From Candidatus Nitrosopumilus sp. (GTDB taxonomy: Archaea; Thermoproteota; Nitrososphaeria; Nitrososphaerales; Nitrosopumilaceae), in assembly GCA_029263475.1 (NCBI GenBank), contig JAJCXK010000056.1:1-64000 (forward strand): DNA of 64,000 nucleotides. Direction: 5' to 3'. The translations under genes and the position numbers were made by a program. Under the pieces are notes generated by a model. The model was not told the DNA's origin. It worked only from the letters and a program-made list of their open reading frames with translations, and made no database searches. Positions 1-34,991 of this stretch are shown piece by piece (the stretch's first letter is position 1; every line of letters starts with the position of its first letter).

Positions 1-9
1 GAAATAAAT

Positions 10-38
10 TTTGATCATGGATAAATTATGCTACTTTA
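10..38 (-). promoter_or_regulatory. Repeated promoter cassette copy A (drives a gene beyond the left window edge)
   Basis: Reverse complement TAAAGTAGCATAATTTATCCATGATCAAA, near-identical to the copies at 3701 and 5431. Confidence 0.7.
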
Positions 39-199
39 TGGGGAATTATTTGATTGATGCTCGTTGTTGTTAAATCGGACAACTTCCAATAATCTCTATT
101 TGATTCACACTGGAAGCATATGGGATTTCCAGATATCGTATTCCCAATTAATCCTACTATGACAACTGATAGCAAAGCCATAGCAAGAAGTGATTTCAT
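26..199 (-). CDS. Small secreted protein (57 aa), MKSLLAMALLSVVIVGLIGNTISGNPICFQCESNRDYWKLSDLTTTSINQIIPHKVA; not in ORF track
   Basis: Manual translation; signal-peptide-like start resembling the 3021..3683 protein; ATGA overlap with upstream ORF 196..375. Confidence 0.7.
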   Translation of the reverse strand: MKSLLAMALLSVVIVGLIGNTISGNPICFQCESNRDYWKLSDLTTTSINQIIPHKVA

Positions 200-375
200 G
201 ACTTTTTCTCATACAAAACGATTGCCAGCCAAACGTGACTTGAATCATCCGCACGTCCGCCTACTGAGACGTTTATGATTTCATTCCCTGCAGACTGCAA
301 CTCTTCAAGTTTTTTTTCTAAATTTTTATCAAGGCTAGACTGAAAATCACCTTTGACCGAAATCGCATGTTTCAT
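196..375 (-). CDS. Small protein (59 aa), MKHAISVKGDFQSSLDKNLEKKLEELQSAGNEIINVSVGGRADDSSHVWLAIVLYEKKS; loosely like Cse60/DUF2758-type small proteins
   Basis: Manual translation; repeated promoter cassette ends 13 nt upstream of ATG; overlaps next ORF by ATGA. Confidence 0.65.
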   Translation of the reverse strand: MKHAISVKGDFQSSLDKNLEKKLEELQSAGNEIINVSVGGRADDSSHVWLAIVLYEKKS

Positions 376-388
376 GACTGAAATGAAT

Positions 389-416
389 ATTGATCATAGT
401 TAAATTGTACTACTGA
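389..416 (-). promoter_or_regulatory. Repeated promoter cassette copy B
   Basis: attgatcatagttaaattgtactactga upstream of ORF 196..375. Confidence 0.7.
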
Positions 417-617
417 CGTATAATAGATTCAAACATTTTCCAAGTAGTTCTTTTCGCATTCTTGCTTGGACCTGTGGTTTTTGCTTGAGATGGAATTCTT
501 CCAATGGACTCATGAACAATAATTGAAAATTCCGTACATGAGGGATGTTTTTTCCTTATTAATTTTCTAGGAACATGTCTGTTCATGAACAGTGTAATTT
601 CACATCTGCAATCTTAC

Positions 618-1016
618 TTATTTTTCTTCCATTAAAACAATCAGAATTTCTGCAGGTATGCTTCCGGTATTTTTTCCATCATGAACATGATCAATTGCCT
701 CCATGAAAGAATCACCTTTCAGATATGTCTTGGTCCTATTTTCTCCGTAATCCACCGTAATTTCGCCTTCCATCATGTATGCAAACATGGGATATTCATG
801 AACATGTTCTCCGGTTTCGGCACCTATGGGTATTTCAACAATCTTTGATATGATTAGTGCGGGTCCAGATGGATACTTGATGTCTTGTCCAATTACGGTG
901 GTGTCCGTTTCTAAGATATTTTGAGATGTTATCTCATCAGTTGCAATGGCAAGATACGTTCCTATGGATAACAATGCTGCCAATCCGACAATAATTGAAG
1001 ATAGGAGTAATTTCAT
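618..1016 (-). CDS. Cupin-domain secreted/membrane-anchored protein
   Basis: Cupin-like core GAETGEHVHEYPMFAYMMEGEITVDYGENRTKTYLKGDSF; start reassigned from 1031 to MKLLLSS at 1016 by analogy to the repeated promoter/start context. Confidence 0.8.
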   Translation of the reverse strand: MKLLLSSIIVGLAALLSIGTYLAIATDEITSQNILETDTTVIGQDIKYPSGPALIISKIVEIPIGAETGEHVHEYPMFAYMMEGEITVDYGENRTKTYLKGDSFMEAIDHVHDGKNTGSIPAEILIVLMEEK

Positions 1017-1030
1017 GACCAAAATATCCA

Positions 1031-1058
1031 ATTTCTACTAGAAAAACTATGCTACTCT
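1031..1058 (-). promoter_or_regulatory. Repeated promoter cassette copy C (diverged)
   Basis: atttctactagaaaaactatgctactct; same GTAGCATA core and spacing to ATG. Confidence 0.5.
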
Positions 1059-1226
1059 AAGAGCGTACCTGTTCAGAACCAAGTTTCTCAAACAATCTGG
1101 AGTATCAGCACATGAGATCAGAATTCAGTGAAATCTTTGAGAAGCGAACGTCTGAAAAAAAGGATAGCCCATTACAAGAAATGCCATAACGAGGTTCATG
1201 GATGGGGATTAAATGTTTGAAACATA

Positions 1227-2152
1227 TTGCTAGTCATGCCAGCTTGGTCTGAATCATTTGCAGTCAACCAAACCAGTGAGGCATCGCCTGCGTTATCCGC
1301 TTATGGTGCTAATGGGGCTTTCCTTGTGCATCTGGGTAAAAACAATATTGACTTGTACAGTACCATGTATGATGGCAGGTGGGAACGGGGTCACAGAATT
1401 TCAAAAAAATCTAGTTTTGGAACACCTGCGCTAACTCATACTAATAATGGACTTGTTGTCATGGTGTGTCGTAAAAAAGGCTCTAACGAATTATTGAGTA
1501 GTATTACTATGCCTGGTACAAATGCGAAAGAATGGTTCGATGACATACGTACTGGTCTTACAAGTATACGATTACCTGCAGTGATACTTCATCGTAAGAC
1601 TTTCAGGTTCCACATGGTATATGTTAAATCCGACACTGGCCGCATCATGCATACTATACGTGATGCTAATGGACGGTGGAGTGAAGGGCATGTTATCCCT
1701 GATGCAATACTGCCCCATCTAGAATCCCCCGCATTGACATGTGCTGATCGTGGTGACATTCACATGGTATACACTGCAGACAATCCGTATCAAGATATTC
1801 ATCATTTGATATATGATTATGATGATGGGAAGTGGAGTCGTGATGTTACCTTTTCCAAGTACAGTTCCCATCAACCATTTTGACGGCTCTTCATAATGAC
1901 ATTCACATGGTATATTGTAGTAGAACGCACAACCACATGGATCACACGATATTTAGCGATTCTACTAAGAGATGGGATTTTGGTGGAACTATATCAAACA
2001 AAACAACTGCAATGGCACCTGCATTAATTGGTACTCTTGATAGAAATCAGTTAATCATGGCATACCGTGATGTTGGTTCTAAACAACTCTTTTGTGCTAC
2101 AAAACTGGAAAGACCAAGTACAGTTTCTTTTGATGTGGACCAAAAAAAATAA
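1227..2152 (+). pseudogene. Lectin/beta-propeller-like repeat protein split by a -1 frameshift at ~1878-1881
   Basis: ORFs 1227..1883 and 1880..2152 share the repeat (S)PALT..gDIHMVY; restoring one base in the TTTT run joins QP-x-LTALHNDIHMVYC. Confidence 0.75.
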
Positions 2153-2175
2153 TAATCTATTGATGACGTGCTTTA

Positions 2176-2550
2176 TCACTTCAAATCCCAAATGCATGTA
2201 TCATGATTAAACAAGTGCGTGCTGTTTCCAATGTTCTTAACGGGTGCAAATCCTCCGGGAGTACAAAACTCCACATACGGACTTTTACCTGAACTCTCAC
2301 TTTCCTGCGGGACCGCACAGCTTATGGCCTTGGAGTTCCCTACCTTGGCGTTTTCTGAAGTCCAATAGTCATTTGAAGAGTCCTTCAGCAGAATTTCAGC
2401 ACAGTTCATCTCTTTCATCTCCAGTCTTTCCAGTTCGGCGTTGGGAAAGATCGTATTCACTTTGTAGTCCAGAGAAAAGGCAAATATTGGAACTATTACC
2501 AACATACATGCAATTGGAATGATCCAATAGTGAAGAGAATCCTCTTCCAT
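2176..2550 (-). CDS. Hypothetical protein with N-terminal membrane anchor
   Basis: ORF with N-terminal hydrophobic helix and Cys residues. Confidence 0.6.
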   Translation of the reverse strand: MEEDSLHYWIIPIACMLVIVPIFAFSLDYKVNTIFPNAELERLEMKEMNCAEILLKDSSNDYWTSENAKVGNSKAISCAVPQESESSGKSPYVEFCTPGGFAPVKNIGNSTHLFNHDTCIWDLK

Positions 2551-2637
2551 GTTTGGAAATAATTGTTCTTCTATTTAATCACTTGAATTCCAAACTGTGA
2601 CTGGTTGCAAAATGACAATGTATGATCCGAACATCTT

Positions 2638-2937
2638 GTGAATTTCACAATAACCAGACACTTTATGCCTAATTCATCCTACTCTAGGATCTTGATTTGC
2701 AATATACTGGGATGTGATATCAAAGCTTACACGAAGGTAATGTTCTACTATTCCCAAGATGGTATCAGACACAAGCCGTTTGCTAGGTGCATCATGCGGT
2801 TTTGCATAAATCACTCAAAGAAGATATCTCAGGATGACTGCACTATCAGCGTTCAGGTGCTAAATCAATTGAGAAGAATCAACGTGGATGTCACGTACAG
2901 GAATAGCATGAAGATGAAGAACCAAAAATTATTCTAA
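2638..2937 (+). CDS. Hypothetical protein
   Basis: ORF only; no domain recognised. Confidence 0.3.
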   Translation: MNFTITRHFMPNSSYSRILICNILGCDIKAYTKVMFYYSQDGIRHKPFARCIMRFCINHSKKISQDDCTISVQVLNQLRRINVDVTYRNSMKMKNQKLF

Positions 2938-3020
2938 TTGATATCAATTAATCTCTAAAGATTGAAAAAGCATTGATCTGCGGTTCGCACATACGAATAC
3001 TACAATGTAACTATCTTGTA

Positions 3021-3683
3021 TTAATCATTCTTGTAACTGTGATATACTTTTTCTATCTCACTGAGTTTGATGTTTAGGACACTATCAAAATCACCAACCC
3101 ATCCACGTTCAACTAGGGATGTTCTAGTGTCTTTAGTTACACACACCACTGTTGAAAAATTGGGTTTTATTACGGATTCAAGACCTTCATTGCATTCGTT
3201 ATTTTTTTCGAATGTCTTGCTAAACTTTTCTACAACATAAAATGCATTGACTGTCCCAGTGCCTTCTGAATCCGTAGCAGGTATTTCCTCATGTAAAAAA
3301 GTTCTAAAAATCCCAAGATCTGCTGGAGTATGTGTTGTTGAAATTAATTTGTCAGTTACTTGCCATGAATTAAAATCATTCTCCGATACAGATACAAGGG
3401 TGTCCCTCAGATCGTCTAGAACAAGAAAACTCAAAGTTCCATTAGAAAATTCTGGTATTGAACGACCGTATACTATTTGTTGAATCTGCATATCTTGTTC
3501 CATCTCAAACACCTGTTGAATTTTTTCAGCGGTGATGGGAAATTCTTTAATTTCTCTTACCTCGATAGAGTGATGTGCAGTGCCATCAACATCAAATTTG
3601 ATTTCCCCCTCATAAGCCTCAGTAATCCCCACACCGCCAACCAAAACTACTGACAGTAAAGCTAGAACTAGAATGGATTTCAT
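3021..3683 (-). CDS. Secreted hypothetical protein (MKSILVLALLSVVLVGGVGITEAYEGEIKF...)
   Basis: Signal peptide, repeated promoter cassette upstream. Confidence 0.75.
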   Translation of the reverse strand: MKSILVLALLSVVLVGGVGITEAYEGEIKFDVDGTAHHSIEVREIKEFPITAEKIQQVFEMEQDMQIQQIVYGRSIPEFSNGTLSFLVLDDLRDTLVSVSENDFNSWQVTDKLISTTHTPADLGIFRTFLHEEIPATDSEGTGTVNAFYVVEKFSKTFEKNNECNEGLESVIKPNFSTVVCVTKDTRTSLVERGWVGDFDSVLNIKLSEIEKVYHSYKND

Positions 3684-3700
3684 GAGTATCTAAAATGAAG

Positions 3701-3728
3701 ATTGATCATAGATAAATTATGCTACTTT
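3701..3728 (-). promoter_or_regulatory. Repeated promoter cassette copy D
   Basis: attgatcatagataaattatgctacttt. Confidence 0.75.
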
Positions 3729-4453
3729 AAGAAAGGAATATTCAACAATTTTGATTCAGCTTCTGTCATTGGTTGAGTACTAAACGTAGGATCAAATATC
3801 CTGATGTTGAGGATGTCCTTCTGATACCGATACAGTTCATGGTCAATCAGATAGCCTCTTTCAAACATCCGGTCAATGCTTGTAGGATACACCAAGACCA
3901 ATTCTTCGTTGAGATTTATCCATTGAATTTTATCCGTATCTTTGAATGTTCCACCTTCTGCAAACAATTCTCCTGCTTGAATATTTTGTTCGACAACCGT
4001 TGGAACAAATGACAACATTCCTACTATTTTTGTTTTATCCTCATAACTTATATCCAGATCGTAGTTAACATTTGGTGTAAAATTTGAACTACCTGTGTCT
4101 ATGGCATATCCAATCTTCCAAATTTTATCAGGATAGAAAGTCTCAATATCATGTTTCCAATCTGGAACAAATGTCTGTGTTTCTACAATGTTTTTTGTTC
4201 CGGTTTCAAGTATTGAAATCGTGATTGAAGTATCAAAATCGGGTTGTATTTCTTCAACATAGATATTGGCATGAATCACGTCACCTTCAACAAAATTACT
4301 ACCATCTATTCTAACAACTAGATTTCCGTCATAAACTTCAGTCTCCTGTCCTGATCCTCGATTGTAATATTCTTCATCACCAGCCCATGCCACACCTGCT
4401 GTAGTTGTGACGATAACCCCAAGTAAAACAGGTAGAATGAGAAGGGATTTCAT
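3722..4453 (-). CDS. Secreted hypothetical protein (MKSLLILPVLLGVIVTTTAGVAWAGDEEYYNRG...)
   Basis: Signal peptide; start reassigned from 4507 to 4453 by cassette position; 4507 start would lie upstream of the cassette. Confidence 0.75.
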   Translation of the reverse strand: MKSLLILPVLLGVIVTTTAGVAWAGDEEYYNRGSGQETEVYDGNLVVRIDGSNFVEGDVIHANIYVEEIQPDFDTSITISILETGTKNIVETQTFVPDWKHDIETFYPDKIWKIGYAIDTGSSNFTPNVNYDLDISYEDKTKIVGMLSFVPTVVEQNIQAGELFAEGGTFKDTDKIQWINLNEELVLVYPTSIDRMFERGYLIDHELYRYQKDILNIRIFDPTFSTQPMTEAESKLLNIPFLK

Positions 4454-4466
4454 GAGTAAAATGAAG

Positions 4467-4493
4467 ATTGATCGTAGATAAATTCTACTACTT
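4467..4493 (-). promoter_or_regulatory. Repeated promoter cassette copy E
   Basis: attgatcgtagataaattctactactt. Confidence 0.7.
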
Positions 4494-4671
4494 GAAGAGA
4501 AAGCCATAGGAATTTAGTGAAAAGTTTCTGTTGATTATCTTTGCATGGCCCATCCTCTTAGGAGTAATGTCACATCAGTACCAGATTTGACACATGCTGG
4601 AGATCCATCTGAATTTTTAAAAATCAAAATCATATTCTCATCACAGACGATTTTTTTTGGATATGTGCCTT

Positions 4672-5322
4672 CTATTTCTTTAACATTTTTTTATGTTCAA
4701 TTAATTCAAATTCGTATTGTATGGGAAGGAGCCCTATGTGTACAAAAGTTTCTGCTTTTATTGGAAATGGATAGTCTTTCACAATCCATATTTTACTTGT
4801 TTTATTACTTAGAGGCCAATTGACAACAGTTGCCTCAATGCTATTTGAATTTATCAAAATCATTTCATTGCCTCCTGTGGTGAATGGAACTCCTCCTCCA
4901 ATATTTCCAATTTGACCCCAATATTCTCCTAATTTGAGATGTTTTGGTGTGTCTTGATTGGAAAAATTATTTAACCAAACCAAAGAATTGTTAAAAACCG
5001 ATGCCAATTGTCTCATGGTATGTCCTGAACCGATGAATTTCATTTCATTTTTTGACAATCTCAATACCTCATCGATTTTGGTTTTTTGATCCGTGACAAT
5101 TGTTTGAATATACCAATAATTTTGAGTCTCATTAATGATTAAAAATTCCAATTCTTGTGAACGACATTCAAAATAATCTATGTGACAAAAATCATATTTG
5201 AAATAGTCTCCTTTCTCAAGATTGATTCCGGGATACCATTCACTTTCTGCAAACGATTCTGAGTTCAGCAATGTGCCCAAGGAAATTAATCCAAAAATAA
5301 TTCCTAATGCTAATCTAAACAT
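4672..5322 (-). CDS. Secreted hypothetical protein
   Basis: ORF with signal peptide (MFRLALGIIFGLISLGTLLNSESFAES). Confidence 0.7.
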   Translation of the reverse strand: MFRLALGIIFGLISLGTLLNSESFAESEWYPGINLEKGDYFKYDFCHIDYFECRSQELEFLIINETQNYWYIQTIVTDQKTKIDEVLRLSKNEMKFIGSGHTMRQLASVFNNSLVWLNNFSNQDTPKHLKLGEYWGQIGNIGGGVPFTTGGNEMILINSNSIEATVVNWPLSNKTSKIWIVKDYPFPIKAETFVHIGLLPIQYEFELIEHKKMLKK

Positions 5323-5324
5323 CT

Positions 5325-5417
5325 TCAAATCCTGATTTTACCATCATACGCCTCAGCAGATCCAATTAATCCAACAAGAACAATCGAAAACAAACCCAAA
5401 ACTAGAATGGATTTCAT
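5325..5417 (-). pseudogene. Truncated signal-peptide fragment MKSILVLGLFSIVLVGLIGSAEAYDGKIRI, homologous to the N-terminus of 3021..3683
   Basis: Alignment by eye to MKSILVLALLSVVLVGGVGITEAYEGEIKF; ends in TGA overlapping the next ORF. Confidence 0.7.
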
Positions 5418-5430
5418 GACTAAAATGAAG

Positions 5431-5458
5431 ATTGATCATAGATAAATTATGCTACCAA
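5431..5458 (-). promoter_or_regulatory. Repeated promoter cassette copy F
   Basis: attgatcatagataaattatgctaccaa. Confidence 0.75.
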
Positions 5459-5693
5459 ATAAAAAATATGAGATATGTTGTCTAATCTGATATCTCGATT
5501 CCACATTCTGTCGAACAGATTCTTCGATTAAAGACATCCTAATATTCTCTGTCACAATGTACACAATTTCTAAAGGACATGATTCTATTATGATGATTTG
5601 ATATTTAACAATGGTTTGACTTCTTGAGATTTAGAACTGAACCTAGAAGGATTGCACCGTAATCCTTTTGTAAATAAAAAACATAATGATATC

Positions 5694-6231: not shown

Positions 6232-6912
6232 ATGAAAGTAGCTGTTGTAGTTTTTCCTGGCAGTAACTGTGATCGAGATATGTATCACGTACTAACTGAC
6301 GTGTTTAATCTTGATGCGCAATACTATTGGCATGAAAAGGGACTGCCAAAAAATATTGATGCTGTAATTCTTCCTGGCGGATTCTCTTATGGTGACCGGC
6401 TCAGAGCAGGTGTAATTGCAGCTCATAGTCCTGTCATAAAAGATGTGCAAAAGATCGCTGAAAAGGGAATTCCTGTTTTGGGCGTATGCAACGGATTCCA
6501 GATTCTCGTAGAGTCTGGATTGCTTCCGGGGGTTTTACTCAAAAATGAATCACTTAATTTCATGTGCGAATGGACCAGTCTGGTTGTCGAAAACAACAAA
6601 ACCCCGTTTACAAATAAATTCAAGTTAAACGAAAAAATCCCAATCCCCATAGCAAATGGCGAAGGCAGATACTATGCTGATGATAACACCCTGAAACAGC
6701 TCAAGAAGAAAAACCAAATTGTATTTCGATACAGTGACGTTGTAAATGGCTCATCCAACGGAATTGCCGGAGTGTGCAACGAGGATGGAAATGTGGTGGG
6801 CATGATGCCTCATCCTGAAAGAGCCGTGGAATCAGAAATCAATCCTGCTGATAACGGACCTTCATCGCTAATCTTTGAATCTTTACTGACAAAAATGGGT
6901 GTGAAAAAATGA
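6232..6912 (+). CDS. purQ: Phosphoribosylformylglycinamidine synthase subunit PurQ
   Basis: Class I glutaminase motifs (FPGSNCDRD, GVCNGFQIL, MPHPERA). Confidence 0.97.
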   Translation: MKVAVVVFPGSNCDRDMYHVLTDVFNLDAQYYWHEKGLPKNIDAVILPGGFSYGDRLRAGVIAAHSPVIKDVQKIAEKGIPVLGVCNGFQILVESGLLPGVLLKNESLNFMCEWTSLVVENNKTPFTNKFKLNEKIPIPIANGEGRYYADDNTLKQLKKKNQIVFRYSDVVNGSSNGIAGVCNEDGNVVGMMPHPERAVESEINPADNGPSSLIFESLLTKMGVKK

Positions 6913-9095
6913 GTCTGAACGAACATGAGCTGTCGGAGCTAAAATCAAAAATCGGCAGAGAGCCTACTTCCACGGAGCTAAACATCGTGGCTGCTGAATG
7001 GTCTGAGCACTGTTCTTACAAATCATCAAAAAGACATCTCAAAATGCTGCCGATGACTGGTCCACTAATAATTAATGAGAAGGGATACGATTCTGGAGTA
7101 CTGGATGTCGGTGACGGATATGTGGTCACTGCGCACATTGAAAGCCATAATCATCCGTCTGCAGTGGAGCCATATGGCGGTGCTGCAACCGGGGTAGGCG
7201 GAGTCATCCGAGACATCTTGTCTGCGGGAACAAGACCAATTGCGCTTTTTGACGGGCTGAGGTTTGGAGATATTGAGAAAGACTTGCAGGCCCGATGGCT
7301 CTTCAAAAATGCGGTGACCGGAGTTGCAGATTATGGAAACTGCTTGGGAATTCCAACCATTGGAGGTGAAGTGGAGTTTGACAAATGCTATGAGAACTAT
7401 GCTCTGGTAGATGTTGCAGCGTTAGGATTTGGCAAAAAGGAGAATCTCATTAAAAACCATGCAAAGAAAGGCGACCTGGTGGTACTGATGGGTGGCTCTA
7501 CTGGCCGAGACGGGATTGGAGGTTCCCAGTTTGCTTCCGATGCGTTGGAATCTGAAAATCGTTCTGCAGTTCAAATTCCTGATCCGTTCATTGAAAAATT
7601 GATCATCGAAGCTGTTTTGGAGGCTAGGAACGACAATCTGATTCATGCCATGAAGGATCTTGGCGGCGGCGGATTGTCATGTGCAATTTCTGAAACCGCT
7701 GATGCCATGGAAATAGGAATAGAGATGGACGTTGAGAAGGTCTATACTCGAGAATCTGACATGATTCCTGAGGAAATCATGGTTTCAGAGTCCCAGGAAA
7801 GGATGCTGATCATTACCAGTGCTGCAAAGCTAAAAAAACTGGAAAAAATATGTAAAAAATTCAGCATTGAATGCTCTGCAATTGGACATGTAAAGTCTGA
7901 CAGTCAGATGCATGTCAAAAAAGGCAAAAAGACTATTGCGAATCTTCCTACCGATGTTGTTGCAAATGCAACTCTGCTTGACTTGCCATCAAAAGAGCCT
8001 GCATATCTGAAAACAATTGAGGCTGAAAAGAAATTCAAACCAATTTCGAACTATTCAAAAGTTCTGATGAAGATGCTTGCATCGCCAAACATCGCAAGTA
8101 AGATCTGGGTTTACCAGCAGTATGATCATGAGGTGGGAATTCGAACCGTCGTAAAACCTGGAAGCGACGCGTCTGTTTTACGATTGGACAACGGAAAGTA
8201 TCTTTCTGCCAAGATTGACGGAAATCCAAAGCACTGCTACATCAATCCTCGCGAGGGGTCGATTGGATGCTTTGAGGAGGCATGCAGAAACGTCGTCTGT
8301 ACCGGTGCCAGGCCCATTGGAATGCTTGATCATCTTCAGTTTGGAAATCCAAATGATCCTGAAATATTTTGGACCTTTTTGGAATCCCTCAAGGGACTGA
8401 CTGACTTTGCAAAATACTTTGAGATTCCGTGCGTCGGAGGCAAGGTCAGCCTGTTCAACGAGACTCCAGCAGGTCCCATAAAACCAACTCCTGTCATCGG
8501 CGTCTTGGGATTGATCGAGAAGAATCTGCACATGCCTCAAAGAATTTCCAAAGGTGATTACCTTGTAATTGTAGGCGATACAAGAGACGAGCTTGGTGGT
8601 TCGGAATACTTTGAATACATTCACAAGTTTGTAGGTGGCAAATGCCCTGTAGTTGATTTTGAAAATTCTAAAAAGCACATGGATTCTGTTTTGAATGTGA
8701 TTGACAATGGCCTTGCAAAGTCCGTTCATGACTGTTCAAAGGGTGGACTGGCAGTTGCAGTATCCGAACTGTGCATGACCAATCAAATCGGTTGTAATGT
8801 GTCTTTGGATAAAGTTCCAAATAAAAAACTGCCAATTGATAGAATTCTGTTTTCTGAGAGTCATTCCAGGTACCTCTTGATCATTGAAAAGAAAAACCTC
8901 GAGGAATCTGAGAACATTCTCAAGGAAAATGATGTGTCATTCAAGCGCATTGGCAAGTTTGGCGGTGATGATATCCAGTTTACAAGTAAGAAAAAGCCTA
9001 TCATAGATCTAAGAGTCAGCAAGGCGCAAAAAACTTGGCTAAATTCGTTAAGGGAATTGGTGCTTAATGGCCAGGGGACGATGAGTAATAATTGA
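6909..9095 (+). CDS. purL: Phosphoribosylformylglycinamidine synthase subunit PurL
   Basis: EWSEHCSYKSSK, HNHPSAVEPYGGAATGVGG; ATGA overlap with purQ. Confidence 0.97.
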   Translation: MSLNEHELSELKSKIGREPTSTELNIVAAEWSEHCSYKSSKRHLKMLPMTGPLIINEKGYDSGVLDVGDGYVVTAHIESHNHPSAVEPYGGAATGVGGVIRDILSAGTRPIALFDGLRFGDIEKDLQARWLFKNAVTGVADYGNCLGIPTIGGEVEFDKCYENYALVDVAALGFGKKENLIKNHAKKGDLVVLMGGSTGRDGIGGSQFASDALESENRSAVQIPDPFIEKLIIEAVLEARNDNLIHAMKDLGGGGLSCAISETADAMEIGIEMDVEKVYTRESDMIPEEIMVSESQERMLIITSAAKLKKLEKICKKFSIECSAIGHVKSDSQMHVKKGKKTIANLPTDVVANATLLDLPSKEPAYLKTIEAEKKFKPISNYSKVLMKMLASPNIASKIWVYQQYDHEVGIRTVVKPGSDASVLRLDNGKYLSAKIDGNPKHCYINPREGSIGCFEEACRNVVCTGARPIGMLDHLQFGNPNDPEIFWTFLESLKGLTDFAKYFEIPCVGGKVSLFNETPAGPIKPTPVIGVLGLIEKNLHMPQRISKGDYLVIVGDTRDELGGSEYFEYIHKFVGGKCPVVDFENSKKHMDSVLNVIDNGLAKSVHDCSKGGLAVAVSELCMTNQIGCNVSLDKVPNKKLPIDRILFSESHSRYLLIIEKKNLEESENILKENDVSFKRIGKFGGDDIQFTSKKKPIIDLRVSKAQKTWLNSLRELVLNGQGTMSNN

Positions 9096-30682: not shown

Positions 30683-31583
30683 ATGGATAATTTAATCCAT
30701 TTGAGAAACTGTAAAAAAATTTCACTGATCACAGATCTGACTACTGGGGAAATTGCATGCAGTCACTGTGGCGCGGTGGTTCCCGAAATATCTGTGGATG
30801 CAACTTCCCAACCATCACATTCTACTGGTGAAGAATACATGAATAATTCTAGGACTGGACAGAAAATTTCATTAAAAATGGCAGACATGGGGTTGTCGAC
30901 GATCATAGAATCAAAAGATAGGGATTCAACAGGTAGGACTCTTTCGGCAGAAAATAAGAGAATGTTCTACAGGCTAAGGATGTGGGACAGAAACAGCAGG
31001 TTTGCCAACACTAGTCAGTCATACGTGAAGGCGTTTACCTTGCTGGATGGAATAAAAGCAAAGCTAGGACTTTCGAATGTCGTTGTAGAGCAAACTGCAT
31101 ACCTCTTTAGGAAAATAACCTTAAAAAAAATACTTGTCGGTAGATCTACTGTTAGAATGCTATGTGCTACTGTATACATTGCATGCAGGTTGACAAACAC
31201 CCCGAGAACGATTCAGGATGTTGCTGATGCGGGTAACATAAAAAGAAAGCATCTTCAAAGCATCTATCGGTTTCTTTTACAGCAACTTGAGATATATCCT
31301 CAATCATACAGTCCTGTTGAATTTGTAACTCTGATTTCTAGAGTCAAAAGTTTCAGAAAGAACAAAGCGTCATGCACTGAAAATCCTGGCCAAATCAGAG
31401 AAAATTGGCATAACTGCCAGTAAAAATCCCATGGCAATGGATGCTGCGGCCATCTATCTTGCATCATTGGTAAACCAAGAGAAAATTTCTCAAATAAAAA
31501 TTTCAAAGGTTTCGGGAATTAGCTCGGTTACCATTCGTAATAGGGCAAGCGAAATCAAAGAAAGATTGGGAGATGATCTATAG
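30683..31583 (+). pseudogene. tfb: Transcription initiation factor TFB with +1 frameshift at AAAA 31346-31349
   Basis: Cyclin repeats in ORF 30683..31423; C-terminus LKILAKSEKIGITASKNPMAMDAAAIYLASLVNQEKISQIKISKVSGISSVTIRNRASEIKERLGDDL* continues in the +1 frame. Confidence 0.88.
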
Positions 31584-34656: not shown

Positions 34657-34909
34657 CTTTTGAATGACATGCAGATGCATGTTTCTGACATATTGTTGCC
34701 TTAGAGATCATGCAAATCTGATTGTGCCAGTTAATTTCGTCACATTTTTCTATTTTATGCATAACGCTATTGGTTCAACTCGATTTTGATTTTTGAATCC
34801 TTTGCAAACGCTGTCATGATGGCCGTTTTGGGACATTGTTTTTTTGATTTCCTCTTTTTTTGATATTTTTTGATTTTTTCAAATGCCATGTCATATTTTT
34901 CCCATTCTT

Positions 34910-34991
34910 ACCATTCCAATCATAGCGGTATCATTGCAATCGAGTGCATTACCATTCCAATCATAGCGGTATCATTGCAATCAAGTGCATT
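34910..34991. repeat. 41-bp tandem duplication (2 copies, one mismatch)
   Basis: accattccaatcatagcggtatcattgcaatcgagtgcatt / ...atcaagtgcatt. Confidence 0.95.

Follow-up and report, generated by a model that had tools for sequence, protein, structure and literature searches.

At the left end of the window (the whole 64 kb stretch analyzed, which is the first part of contig C56 of the draft genome G000), genes for different small proteins begin with nearly the same DNA, and this raises the question of how one start region came to stand in front of such different cargo. The draft comprises 2.29 Mb in 91 contigs and is 95.6% complete, with a contamination estimate of 8%. Its gene content suggests a Nitrosopumilus-like archaeon, apparently an ammonia oxidiser.

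The start module and its genes in the window

The six element copies that a sequence-only reading had placed at 10-38, 389-416, 1031-1058, 3701-3728, 4467-4493 and 5431-5458 were all found, and all six lie on the minus strand. The 21-nt core TATGATCAATNTTCATTTTAG with up to three mismatches occurred 4 times in the window, where shuffled sequences would yield 0.04, and the copy at 1031-1058 was recovered by a profile search (E=1.3e-8, for a copy that belonged to the training set of the profile). In the 16 copies with fixed spacing the conserved block covers 48 bases, from -39 to +8 around the ATG. It is more sharply bounded than had been described and has an abrupt upstream edge: mean information per column was 0.27 bits upstream and 1.3-1.5 bits inside the block. 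Past the block it was 0.4-0.55 bits (0.55 in codons 4-8 and 0.39 beyond), showing that conservation persists at a lower level past +8 and into the signal-peptide codons, as had been described.

The TATA-like AATTTATC spans -31 to -24 from the ATG in the fixed-spacing copies, with its centre near -27, in agreement with the earlier estimate of about 25-30 nt before the start. Because the centre of an archaeal TATA box lies at -26/-27 relative to the transcription start (PMC8553660), the natural reading is that transcription starts at the A of the ATG, and the spacing suggests that the module is a leaderless archaeal promoter. In most copies 37 nt separate the ATG from the T of TAG; in the others the distance is 36, 38, 41 or 42 nt. 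Several of the elements extend into the 3' end of the preceding gene, whose stop is the TAG or TAA within GTAGCATAA; this is seen where the unit at C56:4467 runs into that at 3701, at C88:68877 and at C29:31151. The description of ATGATCAA as palindromic held for the 6-bp TGATCA, but the remainder is not symmetric, and a role as palindromic operator is a guess. In two element copies, L020:14669 (C88) and L024:15454 (C39), ATA replaces ATG, and each leads into a truncated signal-peptide ORF.

The units of the window array are all on the minus strand. Copy 1 (1-34) is cut by the contig end, and identical copies stand at the ends of C14, C39 and C88. The ORF at 26-199, with signal peptide MKSLLAMALLSVVIVG, has no element directly ahead and overlaps the stop of the 59-aa gene at 196-375 (TCATGA). 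It is a copy of the gene at C14:43077 with an internal deletion and a tail in another frame, and not independent cargo; window positions 140-203 and 1-141 are 98% and 100% identical to C14, respectively. Copy 2 (367-414, -39 to +8 around the ATG at 375) precedes the gene at 196-375, which encodes a 59-aa dodecin-like protein (MKHAISVKGDF...) with paralogs on C88 and C29 and a dN/dS of 0.16-0.35. Copy 3 (1008-1056), strongly diverged and with an ATG offset of 38, leads into a 132-aa cupin protein (PF07883; 618-1016) that is secreted or anchored. Copy 4 (3675-3726, ATG at 3683) has a 4-nt insertion (AGATACTC), and its TAG also serves as stop codon for the gene before it; the 220-aa secreted protein that follows (3021-3683) has signal peptide MKSILVLALLSVVLVGG and a C-terminal ERGW motif, and a Pfam search with it gave no match. 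Copy 5 (4445-4492, ATG at 4453) precedes a 243-aa secreted protein (3722-4453) whose C-terminal 72 residues match the related genome G118 near 1782.9 kb. Copy 6 (5409-5456, ATG at 5417) leads into a 30-aa ORF (5325-5417) made of signal peptide MKSILVLGLFSIVLVG and a short remnant, which ends 2 nt ahead of the next ATG; directly 3' of it is a protein of about 216 aa (MFRLALGII..., 4672-5322) secreted by its own signal peptide. The description of the locus as an array of secreted proteins is thus right for most cargo but not for the dodecin-like gene behind the element at 389, which has no signal peptide. Likewise, most pairs of downstream proteins are unrelated, as claimed, but the ORF behind the element at 5431, like several beyond the window, is short and probably a truncated form, and some of the cargo is also present at other genomic sites.

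Distribution of the module and the purS-purQ-purL locus

By purQ-purL DNA the nearest relatives of G000 are G118 (85%) and G174 (82%), the rest being at 79% or less. Strong profile matches numbered about 31 in the 2.29 Mb of G000 and about 17 in G118. When a 32-column pattern was allowed as many as three mismatches, it matched 20 times in G000, 7 times in G118 and never in 248 other genomes of the family. The core TTTATCNATGATCAA gave 20 and 6 matches in G000 and G118, and single or double matches in other genomes at the rate of a reversed-pattern control. These counts refute the view that the element is a generic promoter for this species. The G000 copies are grouped on C14, C29, C39, C56 and C88, with singles on C17 and C81, and they share one orientation within each array, as do all copies in G118. 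Near the array on C29, L023:14230-15723 encodes a lysine/alanine-rich repeat protein and a protein with collagen-like GXY repeats.

A search of all GTDB r220 genomes and IMG/VR with a 22-nt core returned only isolated single matches on unrelated contigs, in collections from which records close to G000 may be missing. The IMG/VR match L066 was rejected as a chance hit, sitting in an open, protein-like stretch. No phage match was found by tblastn with one cargo ORF. A start-anchored scan of about 97% of G174 revealed only tandem or coding repeats and paralogous families, with no common module on unrelated genes, indicating that such amplification is not a general feature of the nearest outgroup. 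Five G174 loci (L174, L211, L228, L237 and L241) hold paralogs (…LTVDG…) with the upstream motif TAAGTTCTACGTGC..TTAAGCAAAA, and their downstream genes are homologous.

The array had been expected to continue past the left edge of the window, and it runs on into contig C39. At its start, C56 shares 114-141 identical bases, one element copy among them, with the ends of C14, C39 and C88, as is to be expected of an assembly broken at a repeat. The left flank, purS, is on C39, and purQ-purL (6232-9095, plus strand) forms the right flank on C56; the window array is therefore part of an island that splits purS-purQ-purL, the link between the two contigs being based on the common 114-bp end and on synteny with G118 rather than on reads. 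The purS-purQ gap amounts to about 18 kb in G000, of which about 12 kb lie on C39 and 6 kb on C56, and to 5.6 kb in G118, against 0.13-0.17 kb in outgroups; in G174 purS ends about 0.17 kb ahead of purQ, and purS adjoins purQ in the other relatives that have the locus. The C39 part of the island encodes a tyrosinase-domain protein (PF00264, E=7.8e-43; L024:8910-9827), a DNA/RNA nuclease, an HNH nuclease, a methyltransferase and a CBS protein, together with a fragment resembling the N-terminal domain of phage integrases (tyrosine recombinases; PF02899, E=2.7e-4, just under the curated cut-off). Since the array lies within a core biosynthetic locus, its effect on purS-purQ-purL expression is testable too.

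Exchange of cargo and signal peptides

The DUF4377 gene carries signal peptide MKSIFVLALLSVILVFG at C88:68877 and MKMLFTSILSIILVAT at C29:31151. The two copies are 86% identical over 464 bp, with homology running from the cleavage site through the stop and the next element to the ATG of the latter; the C29 copy is frameshifted, and this is the sole pair with high DNA identity right to the junction. The EEVVYFDM gene has mature parts 72% identical between G000 and G118 and signal peptides that cannot be aligned, and the STDKQEY cargo stands behind two signal-peptide types, on the basis of 26 residues (61.5%, E=1.7e-7). In G000 an element stands directly before the GGPSLKMQKDW gene (C14:43077), and in G118 the gene has none of its own and overlaps the stop of the preceding gene. 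The AYDGEIRI cargo, also considered as standing on two signal-peptide types, was too short for proof.

Joins were also found at the start codon. The dodecin-like gene begins exactly at the element ATG on C56 and C88, and on C29 it follows a short signal-peptide ORF. At C14:27649 the element's ATGAAATCC is fused directly, out of frame, to the MNYKN gene, and at the related C14:42693 a signal-peptide ORF lies between element and MNYKN gene.

Codon choice was compared at identical residues of signal peptides that lead into different proteins, and the codon was the same at 362 of 946 sites; codon resampling predicts 246 +/- 18 (maximum 314 in 1000 simulations). The pairs are not independent, and the null retains the same pairs. 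These common synonymous codons, the DUF4377 gene on two signal peptides and the exact joins at the ATG support the proposal that the module was duplicated onto different cargo. One signal stands on different cargo and one cargo on different signals, which is terminal reassortment as a process. Some of the exchanges could be old divergence of the signal peptide instead of replacement. A C-terminal segment (..C V ..T..L.ERGW) recurs on otherwise different secreted proteins at C56:3701, C88:68877, on C39 and in G174, and is perhaps a second, 3' module.

Tandem duplication of whole proteins, named beforehand as grounds for refutation, accounts for some copies only: the dodecin-like units (C56, C88 and C29) and the MNYKN pair (C14), which are whole-segment duplicates, the DUF4377 copies and ORF 26-199. 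About 9 of the 22 G000 copies inspected lead into ORFs of 13-50 aa, and dN/dS values of 0.16-0.42 indicate purifying selection on the intact cargo that was tested.

Origin of the module and comparison with known systems

A single-copy gene (MKLLVTI) has the same promoter, with the ATG at 37 nt, in both G174 and G000 (C17:23136). Versions of this promoter also stand before a zinc-ribbon gene (MSILY) in G164, with 41-nt spacing, and in G118 and G000; farther MSILY orthologs are without it. The G164 and G174 sites have profile E-values of only about 1e-4 and are credible because they are orthologous to sites in G000. The occurrence of the promoter on single-copy genes of relatives indicates that this promoter type predates the amplification in G000 and G118. 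We consider it probable, at roughly three chances in four, that an old promoter type was amplified together with a signal peptide and reassorted onto other cargo by recombination.

The amplified module consists of the 5' part of a gene, with the TATA-like box, the conserved ATGATCAAT between TATA and start, and the start codon, and in most copies the signal peptide as well; judging from the spacing, it would drive leaderless mRNAs. Its amplification in the lineage of G000 and G118 would have produced the same-orientation arrays, at least one of them inserted at purS-purQ-purL. Copies swap their downstream cargo, presumably by homologous or illegitimate recombination. The observed outcomes are joins at the ATG, with cargo lacking a signal peptide, joins at the signal-peptide cleavage site, producing new secreted chimeras, and genes taken up behind a short signal-peptide ORF through overlapping stop and start codons. 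Whole segments have also been duplicated, and copies have been truncated or have lost internal parts. The position of the junctions, at ATG and cleavage site, may result from selection for in-frame or coupled joins, and the promoter would place the cargo under common regulation, perhaps by one of several TFBs. It is possible, if rather doubtful, that a standing stock of modules in the islands continually yields new secreted or surface proteins, with junctions preferred at the ATG and the cleavage site, so that the exported cargo differs between individuals of one population.

Ordinary birth and death of one family, with genes duplicated together with their promoter and mature parts that diverged or decayed while the 5' ends stayed alike, agrees with the whole-segment duplicates, ORF 26-199 (from C14:43077) among them, and with the several ORFs cut down to 13-50 aa. 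With several truncated copies or pseudogenes among the units, birth and death by duplication does account for part of the pattern. As an account of the whole it is unlikely: the cargo folds clearly differ (cupin, DUF4377, dodecin-like and unassigned), one cargo is found with different signal peptides, and the mature parts are under purifying selection, which leaves conservation of the 5' end alone unexplained. A regulon, in which selection keeps one binding site for a dedicated regulator, a TBP or a TFB on unrelated genes with no movement of the module, would fit the rigid spacing and block conservation, the same promoter on single-copy genes in relatives, and the presence of about six to eight TFBs per genome; co-regulation of the array members is compatible with the pattern. 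In place of module movement, however, a regulon seems improbable, since it explains neither the common synonymous signal-peptide codons nor the clustering in arrays nor the conservation of ATGAAATCC, including the 4-nt insertion variant common to one signal-peptide type. It may be true in addition to module movement.

An integron-like or MITE-like element, with the 48-bp repeat as a recombination or transposition site, is suggested by the head-to-tail arrangement of different small genes with a short repeat between them and by the tyrosine-recombinase fragment (PF02899) in the C39 island. On the other hand, the copies in the arrays all point one way and the repeat stands at the 5' end of the ORFs, not at the 3' end. 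RNAalifold found no consensus base pairs and no attC-like hairpin among 27 element copies, and TIGR02249 found no integron integrase over its cut-off in the G000 draft, with two matches below the cut-off on other contigs. Phage integrases occur on C10, C26, C48 and C81, with none on C14, C29, C39, C56 or C88 and none within the array. We regard this explanation as extremely improbable.

Reassortment of modules with their cargo has counterparts elsewhere. In type III effector genes the upstream regulatory sequence reportedly moves along. Terminal reassortment of these effectors (Stavrinides, Ma and Guttman 2006, PLoS Pathog 2:e104), as outlined in PMC7555288, adds an existing secretion domain to an existing gene by genome rearrangement and so yields chimeric secreted proteins, as would the module described here. 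The differences are the archaeal host, in which no type III secretion system would be expected, the general secretory signal peptide, the many-copy arrays in one orientation and the lack of a pathogen context. The archaeal arrays also resemble integrons, including the archaeal ones treated in PMC9668308, in having small genes with a short repeat between them, but here the repeat is a 5' promoter without a conserved hairpin or an integron integrase.

A partial literature search gave no archaeal report of promoter and signal-peptide shuffling. The Vpma, vsp and vlp lipoproteins of mycoplasmas have a conserved 5' region and signal peptide before divergent mature parts and are encoded in clustered arrays, and the archaeal arrays resemble them in both respects. 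In mycoplasmas, as in the Vpma switching by Xer1 dealt with in PMC5634654, a site-specific recombinase switches one promoter among genes, whereas here nearly every unit has its own promoter and there is no linked recombinase gene. We would not file the module arrays as a member of the effector or the mycoplasma system; they work like the former and resemble the latter. The arrays would be an archaeal example of how fusion to a ready-made start module can give a gene expression and export at once, and with two sister species and an empty-site outgroup the gain, exchange and loss of modules can be read directly.

Some minor observations were made on transcription factors and repeats. In the seemingly interrupted TFB (TFIIB-family) gene at window positions 30683-31562 the second cyclin fold shifts frame past residue ~230; its pieces at 31013-31276 and 31350-31562 are in different open frames, reflecting either a pseudogene or an assembly frameshift. 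At the G174 loci L168, L176, L212, L234 and L235, five coding stretches have one TBP-like sequence (MYEPEQFPG...) in common, so that this genome may hold about five TBP genes, the family being assigned by eye. Window positions 34908-34989 are a tandem duplication of a 41-nt unit (98% identical), and three related AT-rich palindrome-like repeats of 36-52 nt (families D5, I1 and I2) between 36183 and 40019 are probably another dispersed repeat.
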